Of a stretch of 42,840 bases of DNA, positions 19,050-27,418 are shown piece by piece. The stretch is from contig JAEEXH010000017.1 of the NCBI GenBank assembly GCA_016291435.1, positions 1-42,840 of the forward strand. Reading direction: 5' to 3'. A program made the translations under genes and the position numbers. Numbering within the stretch: the first letter of the stretch is position 1; each line of letters starts with the position of its first letter. The stretch comes from Oscillospiraceae bacterium. GTDB lineage: Bacteria; Bacillota; Clostridia; Oscillospirales; Ruminococcaceae. Under the pieces are notes generated by a model. That model searched no databases, had not been told where the DNA came from, and worked only from the letters and a program-made list of their open reading frames with translations.

Positions 19050-21098
19050 TTACCAGCGTCCGCCGGGCTGTCCGCCGCCGGATGCAGAGCCGGTGACCTG
19101 TGTGCCGCCGGAAACGCTGCCGCCGAGGATCACAGGATAGTTGCTCGCACCGAAGAGGGTCGTGCCGCCGCTTGCGGAAGTGCCGGAGAAGCATGTGGAG
19201 TTATCCTTGGAGGAGATGCCGGGGCTGCCTGCTGCGCACTTGAAGGTGATGACAGCATTGCCGGAAGCATCCTTGAAGGTGTAGGTCGTGCCGAGATTGG
19301 TGTTGCCTGCGGTCATGGTGACGTAAGTGCCGCCGTTCTGGGTGAAGGTGCCGTCATAATCCATCGGCTCCTGACCGTTCGCGACATAGTAGCCGCCGTT
19401 GATGGTAAATGCGCCGTTGGAATCGAACGCATCATGGTCGCCGTTCGCGGAATTGACCACAGCGAAGCCGCCGTTCAGGTTCAGCGTGCCGCTGGAGGTG
19501 CTCATGCCGCCCTGACCCCAGCCTGCGCCGGGACCTGTCGCGCCGCCGGTGCCGGAGCCGTCTGCGCCGCCTGCTGCGTTGTAGCCGTCATCGCCGGAAA
19601 CGATGTAGACAGTGCCGCTGTTCTGGTTGATCGTGACGCCCTCGACGCCCTCATAGCACTTGGTGACGAGGATCTGCACATCGTCATACTTGCCGGAGTT
19701 CTGCGTGCCGATGGTCAGCGTGTGATCGGAATGGAGCGCGTCATCCGCGGTCGCGATGGTCATCACGCCGCCTGTGACGGAGAGATTGCCGCCGCAGTGG
19801 ATCGCGTCATCGGAGGTATCGAAGCTGAGCGTGCCGCCGGTGATGTAGATATTGCCCATGCTCTGCCAGGTGGTGCCTGCTTCATCATAGAGGCCGACTG
19901 CCTTGATGCCCTTTGCGGAAATGTCGGTCTTGTTGGGATTGCCGTCCATGCCCATGCCGCCGCCCCAGCCGCCGGTGCTTCCGGTGCTGCTGCCGTAATT
20001 GCTGCCCTGATAGGTATAGACCGTGAGATCGCCGCCGTTGATATAGACCTCCTGCTCCGCCTGAATGCCGTCGCCGTTCTCCGCACGGAGATTCAGGGTG
20101 CCGCCGTTGATCTTGATATAGCCCTTGCCGGAATCCGCGGTATCATTGGTGGTCTTGAGCGCATCGCCGCCTGTGGAAACGACCTTGACGCTCAGGGTCG
20201 AATAATCGGTATCGTCCGGGTCGCCGATGCGGATGGAATCCTTGCCGCGGATGCCGTCATCGACAGCGGTGACCTGAAGGTCTCCGTTCCAGATCTTGAT
20301 GTCATCCTTGCCGACGATGCCGTCGCCCGCATTGCCCTTGACGATCAGCGTGCCCTTGCCCTTGAACTTGAGGTCATCGAGGGAGTAGATCGCGCCCTGG
20401 CTGCCGTCTGCGTTCGTGTAGCTTGTGCCGTCGGAGATGGTATTGGTCGTGCCGTTCTTCACGGTGATGACGCACTCATCCGCGATCTGCTCAATATAGA
20501 TCGGGGAATCGGAGCTGTTCGAGAGGGTCACGCCGCGGAGGTTGATCGTGACCTGACCGGTCGCATAGGTCGCTTCATCGACATTGACCTTGAGCTGACC
20601 GTTCGCACACTCGCCGTCCACATTGATATCGCCGAAATCGTTGGTGCCGTCGCTCGTGGGCTTTGTGACCGTGACGACCGTGCCGTTTTCGACTGTAACA
20701 TTCGAGGCGCTCGCTGCCGGAACAACCTCGTCATTTGCATTTTTCAGGGTCACGCTGCTTGCTGCGTAGGTGATCTGCGTGACATAGGTATCATCGGTTG
20801 TGACGGGAGGGTCATCATTGCCCGAGCCCTGCTGACCGTAAATCAGGGCGCGCTTCATGAGCGTGAGATCCTTCGCGTTCAGTTTGCCGTCGCTGTTGAA
20901 ATCGGCGGCTGCGGGATCGTTCAGCGCGTTCTCGTCGCCGGTGAGGAACTGTGTGAATGCGACCACATCGGCAAGATCAAAGCTGCCGCTTGCGTTGGTG
21001 TCGCCGGAAACCGCTGCGAAAGCCGGGGTGACAGCACCGAGGGTGAGTGCTGCCGTCGTGATGATCGCAGTACCTGTACGGATCAGGTTCTTTTTCAT
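19050..21098 (-). CDS. Secreted dockerin protein with Cthe_2159-type carbohydrate-binding beta-helix
   Basis: 682 residues from ATG 21098 (GGAAAG about 7 nt upstream; an open frame continues further upstream but looks non-coding). A signal peptide of about 28 residues (AFA|AVS) is followed by a type I dockerin at about 31-88 with repeats GDTNASGSFDLADV and ADFNSDGKLNAKDL. From about 105 to 655 lies a long Gly/Asp-rich repetitive domain with recurring motifs (GDGI, DDGIRGKDSIRI, DDAIHCGG, DDALHSD). This resembles the Cthe_2159 family (PF14262), a calcium-bound right-handed beta-helix reported to bind cellulose and polygalacturonate. It ends in a flexible GGGQPGGRW tail. Probably a non-catalytic or pectate-lyase-like cellulosome component. 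Confidence 0.88.
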   Translation of the reverse strand: MKKNLIRTGTAIITTAALTLGAVTPAFAAVSGDTNASGSFDLADVVAFTQFLTGDENALNDPAAADFNSDGKLNAKDLTLMKRALIYGQQGSGNDDPPVTTDDTYVTQITYAASSVTLKNANDEVVPAASASNVTVENGTVVTVTKPTSDGTNDFGDINVDGECANGQLKVNVDEATYATGQVTINLRGVTLSNSSDSPIYIEQIADECVITVKNGTTNTISDGTSYTNADGSQGAIYSLDDLKFKGKGTLIVKGNAGDGIVGKDDIKIWNGDLQVTAVDDGIRGKDSIRIGDPDDTDYSTLSVKVVSTGGDALKTTNDTADSGKGYIKINGGTLNLRAENGDGIQAEQEVYINGGDLTVYTYQGSNYGSSTGSTGGWGGGMGMDGNPNKTDISAKGIKAVGLYDEAGTTWQSMGNIYITGGTLSFDTSDDAIHCGGNLSVTGGVMTIATADDALHSDHTLTIGTQNSGKYDDVQILVTKCYEGVEGVTINQNSGTVYIVSGDDGYNAAGGADGSGTGGATGPGAGWGQGGMSTSSGTLNLNGGFAVVNSANGDHDAFDSNGAFTINGGYYVANGQEPMDYDGTFTQNGGTYVTMTAGNTNLGTTYTFKDASGNAVITFKCAAGSPGISSKDNSTCFSGTSASGGTTLFGASNYPVILGGSVSGGTQVTGSASGGGQPGGRW

Positions 21099-21219
21099 AT
21101 GGATCTTTCCTTTCTGTGTCTGTGATTGAGAGGGTTCGGCGCCTGCGGGAAGGGGGTCCGCTTCGCCTTTCGTGCCTTCATTATGCCACGCATTTCTTAA
21201 ACCAAGCTGAATGAAAAAC

Positions 21220-21277
21220 TGTTTTTTTGTAATATCGCGATGTTTTTTTGTGATCTGTATATTATACTTTTTGTAAT
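21220..21277. repeat. Three iterated TTTTTGTRAT sites
   Basis: TGTTTTTTTGTAAT at 21220-21233, TGTTTTTTTGTGAT at 21241-21254, and CTTTTTGTAAT at 21267-21277. The ends are spaced 21 and 23 bp, about two helical turns. They lie between the divergent dockerin gene and adhE, and could be a regulator's binding sites or just T-rich promoter DNA. Confidence 0.45.
21261..21266 (-). promoter_or_regulatory. Possible -10 box for the dockerin/Cthe_2159 gene
   Basis: TATAAT on minus at 21266-21261, about 160 nt before the ATG. The hexamer 17 bp upstream is a poor -35 match, so this is tentative. Confidence 0.35.
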
Positions 21278-21310
21278 TCCCGCAGAAATCGGACATCTTT
21301 GCAAATAGGC

Positions 21311-21339
21311 TTGAAATATCCGAGAAAATGTGGTACAAT
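21311..21339 (+). promoter_or_regulatory. Promoter of adhE operon
   Basis: TTGAAA at 21311-21316, 17-bp spacer ending TGTGG (extended -10), TACAAT at 21334-21339, about 45 nt before the adhE ATG. Confidence 0.8.
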
Positions 21340-21388
21340 ATAGATATCAAATCGGCATCCCGTTTGCGGAGCCGGACAGGAGGTATAT

Positions 21389-24076
21389 ATGGATAGCATA
21401 GAACGCGCAGCAGTGGACAGCGTCGCGGCTCTCGAGGCAGAGCTCAAACGTCTGAAAGCCGCACAGCAGGTGTTCGCAGAGTACACGCAGGAGCAGGTCG
21501 ATCAGATCTTCCTTGCGGCTGCATCCGCTGCGAACAAGGCAAGAATCCCGCTTGCAAAGCTCGCCGTTGAAGAAACCGGCATGGGCGTTGTAGAGGACAA
21601 GGTTATCAAAAATAACTATGCGTCTGAGTATATTTACAATGCCTACAAGGACACGAAAACATGCGGCGTCATCGAGGAGGACAAGGCATACGGCATGCAG
21701 AAGATCGCGGAGCCGATCGGCGTCATCGCTGCCGTCATCCCGACCACGAACCCCACCTCGACCGCAATCTTCAAGTGCCTGATCGCACTGAAAACCCGCA
21801 ACGGCATCATCATCAGCCCGCACCCGCGCGCAAAGAAATCGACCATTGCAGCAGCGAAGGTCGTACTCGACGCAGCAGTCGCGGCAGGTGCGCCGGAGGG
21901 CATCATCTCCTGGATCGACGCCCCGAGCCTTGACATGACGCAGACCGTCATGAAGGAAGCGGACATCATCCTCGCGACCGGCGGTCCGGGCATGGTGCAT
22001 GCGGCATATTCGAGCGGCAAGCCGGCTGTCGGCGTCGGCGCCGGCAATACCCCCGCCATCATCGACAAGTCTGCCGATATTGTCCTCGCGGTCAGCTCGA
22101 TCGTCCACTCCACGACCTTCGACAACGGCATGATCTGCGCTTCCGAGCAGTCTGTCATCGTTCACAAGGATATCTATGATGCGGTCAAGCGCGAATTTGC
22201 AGCCCGCGGCTGCTATTTCCTCACACCCGAGGAGACCGACAAGGTGCGCCATACCATCCTGATCAACGGCGCGCTGAACGCAAAGATCGTCGGTCAGTCG
22301 GCATTTAAGATCGCACAGCTCTCCGGCGTCGAGGTCGCAGAGGGCACAAAGGTGCTGATCGGTGAGGTCGAGAGCGTTGATATCTCCGAGGAATTCGCAC
22401 ACGAAAAGCTCTCCCCTGTCCTCGCAATGTATAAAGCAGAGGATATTCAGGATGCCTTCGCTAAGGCAGAGCAGCTCATCGCGGACGGCGGCTTCGGCCA
22501 CACCTCCTCGATCTATCTGAACGATCAGACCGAAAAGGAGATCCTTGCCGAATTCGCAGAGCGCATGAAGACCTGCCGCATCCTCGTCAACACACCTTCC
22601 TCTCACGGCGGCATCGGCGACCTCTACAACTTCAGGCTGACCCCCTCCCTGACGCTCGGCTGCGGCTCCTGGGGCGGCAATTCCGTCAGCGAGAATGTCG
22701 GCGTCAAGCATCTGCTCAATATCAAGACCGTTGCGGTAAGGAGAGAGAATATGCTGTGGTTCAGAGCACCCGAAAAGGTGTATATCAAGAAGGGCTGCCT
22801 GCCGGTCGCGCTCGACGAGCTGAAGAATGTCATGCACAAGCAGCGCGCATTCGTTGTCACTGACAGCTTCCTTTATAAGAACGGCTTTACCAAGCCCATC
22901 ACCGATAAGCTCGATGAGCTCGGCATCCAGCACGCGACCTTCTTCGACGTCGAGCCCGATCCGACCCTCCAGAGCGCAGAAGCGGGCGCTGCACAGATGC
23001 AGGCCTTCCAGCCGGATGTGATCATCGCACTCGGCGGCGGCTCCGCGATGGACGCTGCAAAGATCATGTGGGTGCTTTATGAGCATCCGGAAGCGGACTT
23101 CAAGGATATGGCAATGCGCTTCCTCGATATCCGCAAGAGAATCTACACCTTCCCGAAGATGGGCGAAAAGGCATATTTCGTTGCGGTCCCGACCTCTGCC
23201 GGCACGGGCTCCGAGGTCACGCCGTTCGCCGTCATCACCGATCAGCGCGACGGCGTCAAGTATCCGCTCGCAGACTATGAGCTGCTCCCGAACATGGCGA
23301 TTGTCGATACCGATATGCACATGACCGCGCCGAAGGGACTGACCGCTTCCTCCGGCATCGACGCAGTCTCCCACTGCCTCGAGGCATATGCCGCAATGCT
23401 CGCGACCGACTACACCGACGGTCTCGCGATCCAGTCGCTCAAGACCATCTTCAAGTATCTGCCGCGTGCCTATGAGAACGGTCAGACCGATATCGAAGCG
23501 CGTGAGAAGATGGCAAATGCAGCAACGATGGCAGGCATGGCGTTCGCAAATGCCTTCCTCGGCGTCTGCCACTCGATGGCGCACAAGCTCGGCGCGTTCC
23601 ATCACATCGCACACGGCATCGCAAACGCACTGCTTCTCGAAGAGGTCATGCGCTTCAATGCGTCCGAAGCACCTGCGAAGATGGGCACCTTCTCGCAGTA
23701 TGATCATCCGCACACCCTCCGCCGCTATGCTGAGGTCGCAGAGGCGCTCGGGCTTGGCGGCACCACCGATGAGGAGAAGCTCGAAGCGCTCATTGATGCC
23801 GTCAACGAGCTGAAGGAGAAGATCGGCATCAAGAAGACCATCGCGGATTACGGTGTCGATGAGGAGACCTTCCTCTCTACCCTCGACGAGATGTCCGAGG
23901 CAGCCTTCGACGATCAGTGCACCGGCGCAAATCCGCGCTATCCGCTGATCTCCGAGATCCGGGAAATGTATCTCCACGCCTACTACGGCGACGGGCATTT
24001 TGCCGACAAGGAAATGCCGCCTGTTCCTGCCGCACCGAAAAAGCGCAGAGGCAGACCTGCCGCAAAGAAATCGTAA
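21389..24076 (+). CDS. adhE: Bifunctional acetaldehyde-CoA/alcohol dehydrogenase
   Basis: 895 residues. The N-terminal aldehyde dehydrogenase domain (about 1-440) has catalytic Cys250 in NGMICASEQSV; the C-terminal iron-type alcohol dehydrogenase (about 455-870) has ALGGGSAMDAAK, PTSAGTGSEVTPF and the metal-binding HSMAHKLGAFHHIAHG. It reduces acetyl-CoA to acetaldehyde and then ethanol with NADH. AdhE enzymes form spirosome filaments. ATG 21389 follows GGAGGTATAT. The C-terminus carries an unusual basic tail, PPVPAAPKKRRGRPAAKKS, with an AT-hook-like RGRP. It heads an operon with a kinase-fold protein and a split pyruvate formate-lyase, which supplies its acetyl-CoA. Confidence 0.95.
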   Translation: MDSIERAAVDSVAALEAELKRLKAAQQVFAEYTQEQVDQIFLAAASAANKARIPLAKLAVEETGMGVVEDKVIKNNYASEYIYNAYKDTKTCGVIEEDKAYGMQKIAEPIGVIAAVIPTTNPTSTAIFKCLIALKTRNGIIISPHPRAKKSTIAAAKVVLDAAVAAGAPEGIISWIDAPSLDMTQTVMKEADIILATGGPGMVHAAYSSGKPAVGVGAGNTPAIIDKSADIVLAVSSIVHSTTFDNGMICASEQSVIVHKDIYDAVKREFAARGCYFLTPEETDKVRHTILINGALNAKIVGQSAFKIAQLSGVEVAEGTKVLIGEVESVDISEEFAHEKLSPVLAMYKAEDIQDAFAKAEQLIADGGFGHTSSIYLNDQTEKEILAEFAERMKTCRILVNTPSSHGGIGDLYNFRLTPSLTLGCGSWGGNSVSENVGVKHLLNIKTVAVRRENMLWFRAPEKVYIKKGCLPVALDELKNVMHKQRAFVVTDSFLYKNGFTKPITDKLDELGIQHATFFDVEPDPTLQSAEAGAAQMQAFQPDVIIALGGGSAMDAAKIMWVLYEHPEADFKDMAMRFLDIRKRIYTFPKMGEKAYFVAVPTSAGTGSEVTPFAVITDQRDGVKYPLADYELLPNMAIVDTDMHMTAPKGLTASSGIDAVSHCLEAYAAMLATDYTDGLAIQSLKTIFKYLPRAYENGQTDIEAREKMANAATMAGMAFANAFLGVCHSMAHKLGAFHHIAHGIANALLLEEVMRFNASEAPAKMGTFSQYDHPHTLRRYAEVAEALGLGGTTDEEKLEALIDAVNELKEKIGIKKTIADYGVDEETFLSTLDEMSEAAFDDQCTGANPRYPLISEIREMYLHAYYGDGHFADKEMPPVPAAPKKRRGRPAAKKS

Positions 24077-24093
24077 TGTGAGGAGGAACGATC

Positions 24094-24843
24094 ATGAAGT
24101 TTGATGCTGTTATCGCGGAGCGCCCCAATAAGACGGTCTACCGTCTCGGCGACCGCTGCTACAAGGTTTTCGACGAGAGCTATTCCAAGGCGGGCATCCT
24201 GAATGAGGCACTCAACACTGCGCGTGTCGAGGACACGGGGCTCAATATCCCGCGCATTCTCGAGGTCACGAATGTTGACGGCAAGTGGGCAATCGTCACG
24301 GATTATATCCCCGGCAAGACGCTCTATCAGCTCATGCAGGAGAATCCCGACAAATTTGATGAGTATCTGGAGCAGTTTGTCGATCTCCAGCTCGATGTAC
24401 TCTCGCACAAGTGCCCGCTGCTCGGCAGACTCAAGGACAAGATGCACGGCAAGATCTCCGCATCGTCCTTCCCGGCGACGGTGCGCTATGATCTGCACAC
24501 CACGCTGGAATCCATGCCGAAGCACTTAAAGCTCTGCCACGGCGATTTCAACCCGGCAAACATCATCATCGGCGACGACGGCAAGACCTATATCATCGAC
24601 TGGGCACATGCGACACAGGGCAATGCTTCCGCGGATGCTGCACGCACCTATCTCCTCTTCTACCTCAACGAGCACGAGGATGTTGCGAAGAAATATCTGA
24701 AGCTGTTCTGCGCAAAGAGCGACACCGCGATCCAGTATGTGCAGAAGTGGATGCCGATTGTGGCTGCATCGCAGTCGGTGAAGGGCAATGCGCACGAGCG
24801 TGAATTCCTCGAGCGCTGGGTCAATGTTGTGGATTATGTGTAA
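24094..24843 (+). CDS. APH-fold phosphotransferase (aminoglycoside phosphotransferase/choline kinase-like)
   Basis: 249 residues, starting 17 bp after adhE with AGGAGG before the ATG. It shows the kinase-like fold: an N-lobe with RLGDRCYKVF, a hinge region near IVTDYIPGKTLY (68-79), the Brenner catalytic motif CHGDFNPANIII (148-159, Asp151) and the metal-binding DWAHA (Asp169). This superfamily phosphorylates small molecules (aminoglycosides, choline, sugars) and sometimes proteins. It resembles a TIGR02172-like group of unknown substrate. There is no reason to call it an antibiotic-resistance gene. Its place between adhE and pyruvate formate-lyase suggests a metabolic or regulatory role in fermentation, which is inference. 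Confidence 0.82.
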   Translation: MKFDAVIAERPNKTVYRLGDRCYKVFDESYSKAGILNEALNTARVEDTGLNIPRILEVTNVDGKWAIVTDYIPGKTLYQLMQENPDKFDEYLEQFVDLQLDVLSHKCPLLGRLKDKMHGKISASSFPATVRYDLHTTLESMPKHLKLCHGDFNPANIIIGDDGKTYIIDWAHATQGNASADAARTYLLFYLNEHEDVAKKYLKLFCAKSDTAIQYVQKWMPIVAASQSVKGNAHEREFLERWVNVVDYV

Positions 24844-24892: not shown

Positions 24893-26968
24893 ATGTTTGA
24901 TGAATTTGCCCCCGAATGGGAGGGCTTTGCCCGCGGAAAATGGACGACATCCGTCAATGTCCGCGATTTTATCCACCGCAACTACACGCCGTATGACGGC
25001 GACGAGAGCTTCCTTGAGGGCCCGACCGAAGCGACCAAAGCGCTCTGGGCACAGGTGATGGATCTGTCGCAGAAGGAGCGTGAGGCAGGCGGCGTCCTCG
25101 ATATGGACACCAAGATCGTCTCGACCATCACCTCGCACGGTCCCGGCTATCTCAACAAGGATCTTGAGCAGATCGTCGGCATCCAGACCGACAAGCCGTT
25201 CAAGCGGGCGCTCCAGCCCTTCGGCGGCATCCGTATGGCACAGAACGCCTGCCGCGAATACGGCTATGAGGTCGATCCGGAGGTCGTCAAGATCTTCACA
25301 AAATACCGCAAGACACACAATCAGGGCGTCTTCGATGCCTATACCCCCGAGATGCGCCTTGCCCGCAAGTCCGCGATTCTCACAGGTCTGCCGGATGCCT
25401 ACGGGCGCGGCAGAATCATCGGCGATTACCGCAGAGTCGCTCTCTACGGCGTCGATATGCTGATTGCTGACAAGGAGCAGCAGAAAGCGACCTCCTTTGT
25501 CCGCATGACCTCCGAGAACATCCGCCTGCGCGAGGAGCTCTCCGAGCAGATCCGCGCACTCGGCGAGCTCAAGGAGCTCGGGCAGATCTACGGGCTCGAT
25601 ATCTCCCGCCCGGCGAAGAACGCAAAGGAAGCAGTGCAGTGGCTCTATTTCGGCTACCTCGCTGCCGTCAAGGAGCAGAACGGCGCCGCCATGTCGCTCG
25701 GACGCACCTCGACCTTCCTCGATATCTTCATCCAGCGCGACCTCGACCGCGGTCTCATCACCGAATCACAGGCACAGGAGCTGATTGACCACTTCATCAT
25801 GAAGCTCAGAATGGTGAAATTCGCACGCACCCCGGAGTATAATTCGCTCTTCTCCGGCGACCCGACATGGGTCACGGAATCGATCGGCGGCGTGGGCGTT
25901 GACGGCAGACACATGGTGACGAAAAACTCCTTCCGCTATCTCAACACGCTCAACAATCTCGGCACTGCGCCCGAGCCCAACATGACCGTGCTGTGGTCGG
26001 TGCATCTGCCGATGAATTTCAAGCGCTTCTGCGCAAAAATGTCAATCCAGACCTCCTCGATCCAGTATGAGAACGATGACCTCATGCGTGAGACGCACGG
26101 CGACGATTACGCGATCGCCTGCTGCGTGTCCTCGATGGTCGTCGGCAAGGAGATGCAGTTCTTCGGCGCAAGAGCGAACCTCGCAAAATGTCTGCTCTAC
26201 GCGATCAACGGCGGCGTCGATGAGGTCATGAAGGTGCAGGTCGGTCCGAAATACCGCCCTGTCACCGGCGATTATCTCGACTATGACGATGTCATGGACA
26301 AGTATGACCAGATGATGGAATGGCTCGCGGGGCTCTATGTCAACACGCTGAACGTCATCCACTATATGCACGATAAATACAGCTATGAGCGGCTTCAGAT
26401 GGCACTGCATGACCGTGACGTCAAGCGCTATTTCGCAACCGGCATCGCAGGGCTCTCCGTTGTCGCAGACTCCCTGAGCGCGATCAAATACGCAAAGGTC
26501 AAGGTCATCCGCGATGAGAACGGCATCGTCACCGATTACGAGATCGAAGGCGATTTCCCGAAGTACGGCAACAACGACGACCGCGTCGATCAGATCGCTG
26601 TCAATATCGTGCGCAGCTTCATGTATAAGATCCGCAAGCATCACACCTACCGCCACTCCTTCCCGACGATGAGCATTCTGACAATTACCTCGAATGTTGT
26701 CTACGGCAAGAAGACAGGCAACACCCCGGACGGCAGAAAGCACGGCGTGCCGCTCGCACCGGGCGCAAACCCGATGCACGGCAGAGACACCCACGGCGCC
26801 GTGGCATCGCTCAGCTCTGTTGCAAAGCTGCCGTTCCGCCACGCACAGGACGGCATCTCCAACACCTTCTCGATTGTGCCGGATGCGCTCGGCAAGAACA
26901 CGCGGGTGTTCTCGGGCGAGCTGGATCTCGATGCACTGCGCGAGGAGGCAGAGCATGAATCCGAATGA
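24893..26968 (+). CDS. Pyruvate formate-lyase core, lacking the glycyl-radical domain
   Basis: 691 residues. PFL turns pyruvate and CoA into acetyl-CoA and formate. The body matches PflB throughout: the active-site cysteine pair Cys410-Cys411 in [22 protein letters not shown], and the late [16 protein letters not shown]. It stops where E. coli PflB continues into the last roughly 75 residues carrying the radical glycine. That missing part is encoded separately at 27179. The core ends in an extra acidic tail ([13 protein letters not shown]) and overlaps the next start by 14 bp. The gene lies 49 bp after the kinase; AAAGGAT precedes ATG 24893. The ends are clean and the next genes have good ribosome-binding sites, so I read this as a real split rather than a sequencing error. 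Confidence 0.93.
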
Positions 26969-27179
26969 AGCCCTTTCCCCGGAGGAGATGTCGCCGGAGG
27001 AGCTCTCTGCGCTGATCGACAGCCTGATGGCTTCCGGCACACAGCATCTGAATCTCACGGCGGGCGACACGATGCAGGTTGAGACGCTCAGCAGCACGGA
27101 CTGCTGCAAGGGCGGCGCCTGCGCGATTCCGACGCTCGGTGAGGGCGCCGATCTCGAAGAAGAAACGGAGGAATTCTAA
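26955..27179 (+). CDS. Small Cys-containing protein between PFL core and radical domain
   Basis: 74 residues. GAGGAGG lies 6 nt before ATG 26955, inside the end of the PFL core gene, and the stop overlaps the next ATG (TAATG). The N-terminal half has Pro/Glu-rich SPEE repeats. Residues 18-34 ([17 protein letters not shown]) resemble the start of the following glycyl-radical domain ([19 protein letters not shown]), so it looks like a diverged partial copy of that domain. The RVSGY radical site is absent. Instead there is a cysteine cluster, Cys50, Cys51 and Cys56 in [13 protein letters not shown], and an acidic tail. It could be an assembly factor, adaptor or metal-binding partner of the split enzyme. 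No known family recognised. Confidence 0.8.
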
Positions 27180-27418
27180 TGGCAACGGAACAGCAGATCG
27201 AGAATCTGGTGGAGCTGCTGGACGGCTATGCGTCCAAGGGCGGGCATCACCTCAATGTCAACGTATTTACACGCGAAACACTGCTTGACGCACAGGAGCA
27301 CCCGGAGAAGTATCCGCAGCTGACCGTGCGCGTCTCGGGCTACGCTGTGAACTTCACAAAGCTGACCCGCGAGCAGCAGAACGATGTCATCTCGCGCACC
27401 TTCCACGAGAGCATCTGA
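27179..27418 (+). CDS. Stand-alone glycyl-radical domain of pyruvate formate-lyase (GrcA/YfiD-like)
   Basis: 79 residues. It matches the C-terminal part of PflB and E. coli Grc[18 protein letters not shown], then [19 protein letters not shown] with the radical Gly54, then [18 protein letters not shown]. An activating enzyme would put the radical on Gly54, which passes it to the cysteine pair in the core. GGAGG lies 7 nt before ATG 27179, which overlaps the previous stop. In E. coli GrcA replaces an oxygen-cleaved end of an intact PFL. Here the core has no radical domain of its own, so this subunit should be essential. The activase gene (pflA) is not in the window. Confidence 0.93.

Follow-up and report, generated by a model that had tools for sequence, protein, structure and literature searches.

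Pyruvate formate-lyase (PFL) is the textbook example of an oxygen-killed enzyme of anaerobic sugar fermentation: in the intact protein oxygen cuts the chain at the radical glycine, and the small protein GrcA/YfiD can replace the lost end. In the Oscillospiraceae bacterium considered here (assembly GCA_016291435.1, contig JAEEXH010000017.1, of which the 42,840 nucleotides analysed are called the window) PFL is encoded as a core that ends before the glycyl-radical domain and as a separate radical subunit, with a third, short gene between the two (table 1). The preliminary description of this DNA gave the reading frames of core and radical subunit, with lengths and coordinates, as they are found here; the middle open reading frame (26955-27179) was not described in it.

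Table 1. Features of the split PFL locus (positions in the window).
Feature	Position	Strand	Remarks
PFL core, 691 aa	24893..26968	+	glycyl-radical domain absent; active-site Cys410-Cys411
Third (middle) gene, 74 aa	26955..27179	+	helix and GTQHLNL strand, then Cys-pair peptide
Glycyl-radical subunit, 79 aa, GrcA3 type	27179..27418	+	Gly54 = E. coli Gly734
Shine-Dalgarno-like GAGGAGG	26942..26948	+	precedes middle gene, within core gene; by eye
Shine-Dalgarno-like ACGGAGGA	27165..27172	+	precedes radical-subunit gene, within middle gene; by eye

The split locus

When aligned with E. coli PflB (numbered with the initial Met), the core covers residues 6-681 (450/670 identities) and the radical subunit residues 685-760 (49/71), leaving about three PflB residues uncovered between them, in agreement with the earlier view that no segment is missing. 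The catalytic residues proposed at the outset also hold: Cys410, found in IACCVSS in the core translation, falls on PflB Cys419 (Cys418 without Met), and Gly54 of the subunit on the radical Gly735 (Gly734 without Met). Correspondingly, the PF01228 profile is divided between the two chains, positions 2-50 being matched in the core and 49-106 in the 79-residue protein. The core passes the PFL1 model TIGR01255 (1149.9 bits, cut-off 994.2, model positions 1-665 of 744) and matches PF02901 with 738 bits; PFL1 also asks for a radical domain in the same chain, whereas this chain ends at PF01228 position 50. The radical subunit passes NF038360 (GrcA3; 164.7 bits, cut-off 158) and stays below TIGR04365, the model of the GrcA/YfiD spare part (98.6 bits against a cut-off of 170). 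Radical subunits are strongly conserved, with a mean column identity of 88% in an alignment of 12 rows.

The three genes are tightly packed: the middle gene starts with an ATG inside the 3′ end of the core gene and ends with a TAA of which one base also belongs to the start codon (ATG) of the radical-subunit gene. A purine-rich, Shine-Dalgarno-like stretch can be recognized by eye upstream of all three reading frames, including the one that had been taken as the radical subunit's own ribosome-binding site. Among the loci described below, core end and middle gene overlap in 47/73 (with script-chosen start codons).

The sole PFL detected in the draft genome

A search of the genome for full-length pflB and for pflA had been proposed as a check. 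The genome is a draft (3.16 Mb in 155 contigs, 92.7% complete), in which the PF02901 profile search returned a single match, namely the radical-less core, and no full-length PFL. The possibility of a hidden full-length PFL was rejected, since the other PF01228 protein of the genome (P0001) is the class III anaerobic ribonucleotide reductase NrdD (PF13597, 662 bits; PRK09263, 947.9 bits), and the 79-residue protein is thus the only PFL radical domain found. One PflA scores above the cut-off (TIGR02493, 283 bits, cut-off 231.75) and is encoded on contig C134. Thus, the search brought up no full-length PFL for which the small subunit could be a mere spare part.

The third element

The middle proteins form a conserved family (alignments A2, with 21 rows, and A9, with 27 rows; A3, A4, A5 and A8 were left out because MAFFT misplaced middle-gene, tail or mixed rows). 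Their common layout is a helix, a strand resembling G-x-x-H-[ILV]-N and then a C-x(3-6)-C-x-x-P peptide, the last of which fits 71/73 of them. The ratio of non-synonymous to synonymous substitution rates (dN/dS) of the middle gene is 0.04-0.38 in 14/16 pairs, two of them with the window, dS being saturated in 2/16; the radical subunit is also under purifying selection. The conserved family and the low dN/dS led us to reject the idea that the middle frame is open by chance.

Comparison of the middle-protein and radical-subunit profiles gives an hhalign probability of 89.9 over 26 columns that span the helix and the strand, and the middle-gene profile, in turn, weakly matches radical subunits. 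In the genomes of 61 relatives strong matches to this profile (E <1e-16) occur in 23, all at split loci of the middle-gene type, some of these matches being rows of the profile itself; no strong match was found in G006, G012 or G014. Neither Pfam nor NCBIfam has a model that the middle protein matches at its cut-off, and in the PDB there is no clear match to it (profile matches are marginal, with a best E of 0.026), so that the third element appears to be unnamed as far as these three resources go.

In other lineages the core itself bears a C-terminal tail with Cys residues. The census comprised 118 loci including the window, of which 5 lack a complete pair, 2 are one chain and 111 are two-chain pairs; among the latter a middle gene is present in 73, a core tail with Cys in 33, neither in 5 and both in none. 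After removal of three identical duplicates the figures are 71, 32 and 5 of 108 unique pairs, i.e. 103/108 carry either a middle gene or a Cys-pair core tail, and never the two together, although, the patterns having been tuned on the same loci, these counts are a description and not a test. The stricter C-x(2-6)-C-x-x-P pattern fits 20/33 core tails, and core tails (GACGTPTLFEGLD) and some middle proteins (ACQVPTLHKGIDD) have similar ends. The tail types have no copy of the helix and strand, and in some (e.g. L093 and L103) there are only adjacent Cys residues. To judge from these sequences, the core tail and the C-terminus of the middle protein may be the same element in two genetic forms.

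Distribution and phylogeny

The split recurs in 25/30 genomes of the same genus (own included), as well as in 2/31 other relatives searched (G047 and G056). G006, G012 and G014, of the same genus, have a full-length PFL and no split; the loci L060, L061 and L062, from three same-genus genomes with full-length PFL, have neither split core nor middle gene. In G011 and G017 (same genus; 75-77% complete) there was no PFL match. Among named genomes, the best 80 of 581 relatives were taken with the separate radical subunit as the query, so that the share of split loci among them is not a frequency: 75 were classed as split by the script and 2 as one-chain (L132 and L143), the core being missing from the locus DNA examined for L145 and L146 among the 75, while L107, left unclassed by the script, was later recognized as split, and L133 and L148 gave no row. 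Of 393 genomes sampled evenly across the class, for which at least 90% completeness was requested, 18 (own included) pass the GrcA3 cut-off.

According to their titles, six of the split genomes are from cultured strains, namely Ruminococcus bicirculans 80/3, Ruminococcus sp. YE71, Lachnospiraceae bacterium MD329, Massilimicrobiota An134, Beduini massiliensis and Lachnoclostridium phytofermentans KNHs2131. R. bicirculans 80/3 has no PF02901 match besides the split core; the other five have 1-2 further PFL-like genes each, so that in these strains there are candidates other than the split enzyme. A trait of the own genus alone was considered and rejected, the split being found in other Bacillota, cultured strains among them. 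Its recurrence in the genus and in named isolates shows that the split is due neither to chance nor to an assembly error. A conserved arrangement that looks functional is supported, with no full-length PFL found in the draft genome, strongly conserved radical subunits and, at most loci, a pflA-like gene close by.

A quick tree was built from 110 cores, 18 of them one-chain. In it 90/92 split cores group together in a set of 93 rows (SH-aLRT, an approximate likelihood-ratio test, 95), within which the one-chain PFLs L132, L143 and L160 are nested; five changes of state between split and one-chain are needed on this tree, which has long branches and few one-chain rows, and from which near-copies had been removed beforehand. 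The nested one-chain PFLs look like re-fusions. In the first tree, which included E. coli, the two split cores outside the main set were L161 and L162.

Some individual loci deserve mention. In L132 (5001-5225 and upstream; Lachnospiraceae SIG300) core and radical domain belong to one natural chain, which also includes a stretch with Cys residues (TCGCEEVTC). The radical-less cores of L161 and L162 (members of the class, f82) end directly after SLGKDD, with no tail, an end that resembles that of PDB 38la (see below). At L159 (Ruminococcus sp. YE71, G062:C17:42168-44468) a second PFL-like gene has an in-frame TAG before the radical domain, which may mean that this gene, too, is split, that it has decayed or that the stop codon is recoded. 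A GrcA3-type gene with no core detected is present at L145:5001-5234, in a metagenome-assembled genome labelled Gastranaerophilales, where a binning error is possible.

Gene neighbourhood

A pflA-like gene follows the radical subunit within 700 nt on the same strand in 64/88 unique loci for which 1 kb or more of DNA is available downstream, which ties the system to glycyl-radical activation. Directly upstream of the split PFL of the window (21389-24843) there are, by eye, adhE-like and phosphotransferase-like genes, a pair that among the loci compared, some with short flanks, is shared by L075 only. Further upstream of the adhE-like gene, a long secreted-looking protein, with an N-terminal part that by eye is dockerin-like, is encoded at 19050-21350 on the minus strand.

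Relation to known enzymes

The closest solved chains to the core are PDB 38la and 38lb, annotated as ‘Formate acetyltransferase’, with 1165 and 1159 bits, respectively, as compared with 1049 for E. coli PFL (1h16). No radical-domain match was found in 38la or 38lb, unlike in 1h16, and 38la ends at SLGKED, near the end of tail-less cores such as L161. These chains may be cores that are split in nature or constructs that had been cut, and such cores are probably available to some group. For the radical subunit, no PDB chain is nearer than E. coli PFL and YfiD. That no PFL with its radical domain solely in trans had been described, as the preliminary description suggested, is borne out to the extent that no paper on a split PFL was found in the open-access literature searched (no preprints, few subscription papers). 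On the other hand, the subunit has been named GrcA3 by NCBIfam, and 38la and 38lb are without a detectable radical domain: the split is catalogued rather than unknown. The same literature yielded nothing direct on GrcA3 or on formate production by R. bicirculans.

The 79-residue subunit is like GrcA3 in scoring above the cut-off of that family, the name of which, however, speaks of an autonomous cofactor; the genomic context suggests that it is, instead, the regular partner of a radical-less core. It differs from the GrcA/YfiD spare part in that no full-length PFL to be repaired was found in its own draft genome. With the E. coli PFL/YfiD pair the split system shares a homologous core and radical domain, and YfiD, too, gives a radical domain in trans to a PFL without its own; in E. 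coli, however, PFL is synthesized as one complete chain and YfiD serves PFL that has been damaged, whereas here no whole PFL was found in the draft genome, the sole PFL radical domain found is the small subunit and a third element is present.

Proposed mechanism and alternatives

We consider it highly probable that the locus encodes a genetically split but functional PFL, in which a docking radical subunit and a contact through the third element together make up the enzyme. PflA, encoded elsewhere in the genome, would place the radical on Gly54 of the 79-residue subunit, which would dock in the 691-residue core at the site that in E. coli PFL is occupied by the covalently attached C-terminal domain; the radical would then pass to the Cys410-Cys411 pair and pyruvate would be cleaved with coenzyme A. 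The middle protein, or elsewhere the Cys-bearing core tail, would be an extra contact that helps the core to recognize and hold the radical subunit.

This role of the third element is proposed by analogy with the repair of oxygen-cut E. coli PFL. In a published study of the latter (PMC8683613), oxygen-cut PFL (1-733) binds YfiD; deletion of PFL 696-733 weakens YfiD binding and activation; and with YfiD lacking residues 1-60 binding to cut PFL is too weak to measure and the radical fourfold less. A split into core and radical domain alone would combine both truncations, and the third element may therefore be needed. As the middle protein copies part of the 696-733 stub, the enzyme found in nature may be similar to the full repair complex of core, stub and radical part, which is the best-supported reading: the third element would do the job of the leftover stub, and the organism would permanently run a complex that E. 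coli forms for repair in an emergency only. From this it follows that a used or oxygen-cut radical subunit could be exchanged without the core being remade, so that cheap replacement after oxygen damage, as put forward in the preliminary description, is plausible. The sequences themselves show the split, its conservation, its standing as the sole PFL detected in the draft genome and the presence of the third element, whereas activity, docking, activation in trans, exchange of damaged subunits and the part played by the third element are inferred.

Several points weigh against such a scheme. The same source states that truncated E. coli PFL (1-695) folds and, after activation, functions fully, so that the third element need not be essential, and 5/108 unique pairs (L125, L138, L150, L161 and L168) have no recognized Cys element. 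The genome is a draft, with pflA on C134 and not beside the split genes, and in 24/88 loci, as in the window, no pflA-like gene lies within 700 nt downstream. A middling read-through model of the tail type (core, tail and radical subunit) reached a predicted local distance difference test score (pLDDT) of 66, most of the tail being below 50, and a predicted template modelling score of 0.69, and here AlphaFold may merely recall PFL; the pLDDT of the three-part model with the middle protein was 42, too low to be informative on docking. The literature searched contained no biochemical or proteomic work on a split PFL and no measurement of formate production by one.

What the third element does may be viewed in different ways. 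As a partial copy of the radical domain with the glycyl loop replaced by a Cys-pair peptide, it might gate or plug the active site in trans, the radical subunit being an exchangeable cartridge and the core tail taking this part in other lineages, a proposal that we put forward tentatively. That it is a redox-sensitive placeholder, the strand of which fills the radical-domain slot of the empty core while the Cys pair acts as an oxidation sensor or as a quencher of stray radicals, with binding of the radical subunit thereby confined to reducing conditions, would again fit a copied helix and strand in which C-x(3-6)-C-x-x-P stands for the glycyl loop; the tail types, lacking such a copy and at times having adjacent Cys only, fit less well, and we regard it as rather unlikely. 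The small subunits of benzylsuccinate synthase and 4-hydroxyphenylacetate decarboxylase, which are likewise small partners of glycyl radical enzymes, offer another model, although their partner enzyme keeps a covalent radical domain and they themselves have more Cys, bound in iron-sulfur clusters with four Cys per cluster. In PMC10239695 the beta subunit of benzylsuccinate synthase is proposed to control radical-domain movement and a [4Fe-4S] cluster is mentioned for such small subunits. The third element, a small acidic protein with a conserved Cys pair beside a glycyl radical enzyme, might by analogy be an accessory part that binds a metal or a cluster and governs how the radical domain opens. 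With usually 2-3 Cys instead of the four per cluster of those subunits, and with only marginal PDB matches, this is improbable.

As to the split itself, it could be a regulatory or assembly device, setting stoichiometry or easing the access of PflA, to which replacement after oxygen damage would be incidental. The tight gene packing favours fixed co-translation over the production of extra spare parts, but the radical subunit, with its own Shine-Dalgarno-like site, could be made in excess; we take this to be possible, with the balance leaning somewhat against it. An assembly error in the intervening sequence, or a decayed gene, has a negligible chance of being the explanation: nothing was found in its favour, the same break recurs across the genus and in cultured isolates, and both radical subunit and middle gene are under purifying selection. 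The preliminary description had named such an error among the findings that would overturn its reading.

Significance

For many gut and rumen bacteria a central enzyme of sugar fermentation would be made in separately encoded pieces, its oxygen-fragile radical tip being a small protein. A natural PFL with the fragile domain as a subunit would permit direct tests of radical-domain movement and of the access of PflA to the glycine, and would also allow testing whether anaerobes cut the cost of oxygen damage by gene splitting. If a three-part glycyl radical enzyme is indeed at work, it would include a previously unnamed component. The Cys-pair element, kept in two genetic forms, points to a part of the mechanism that has gone unrecognized in these bacteria.
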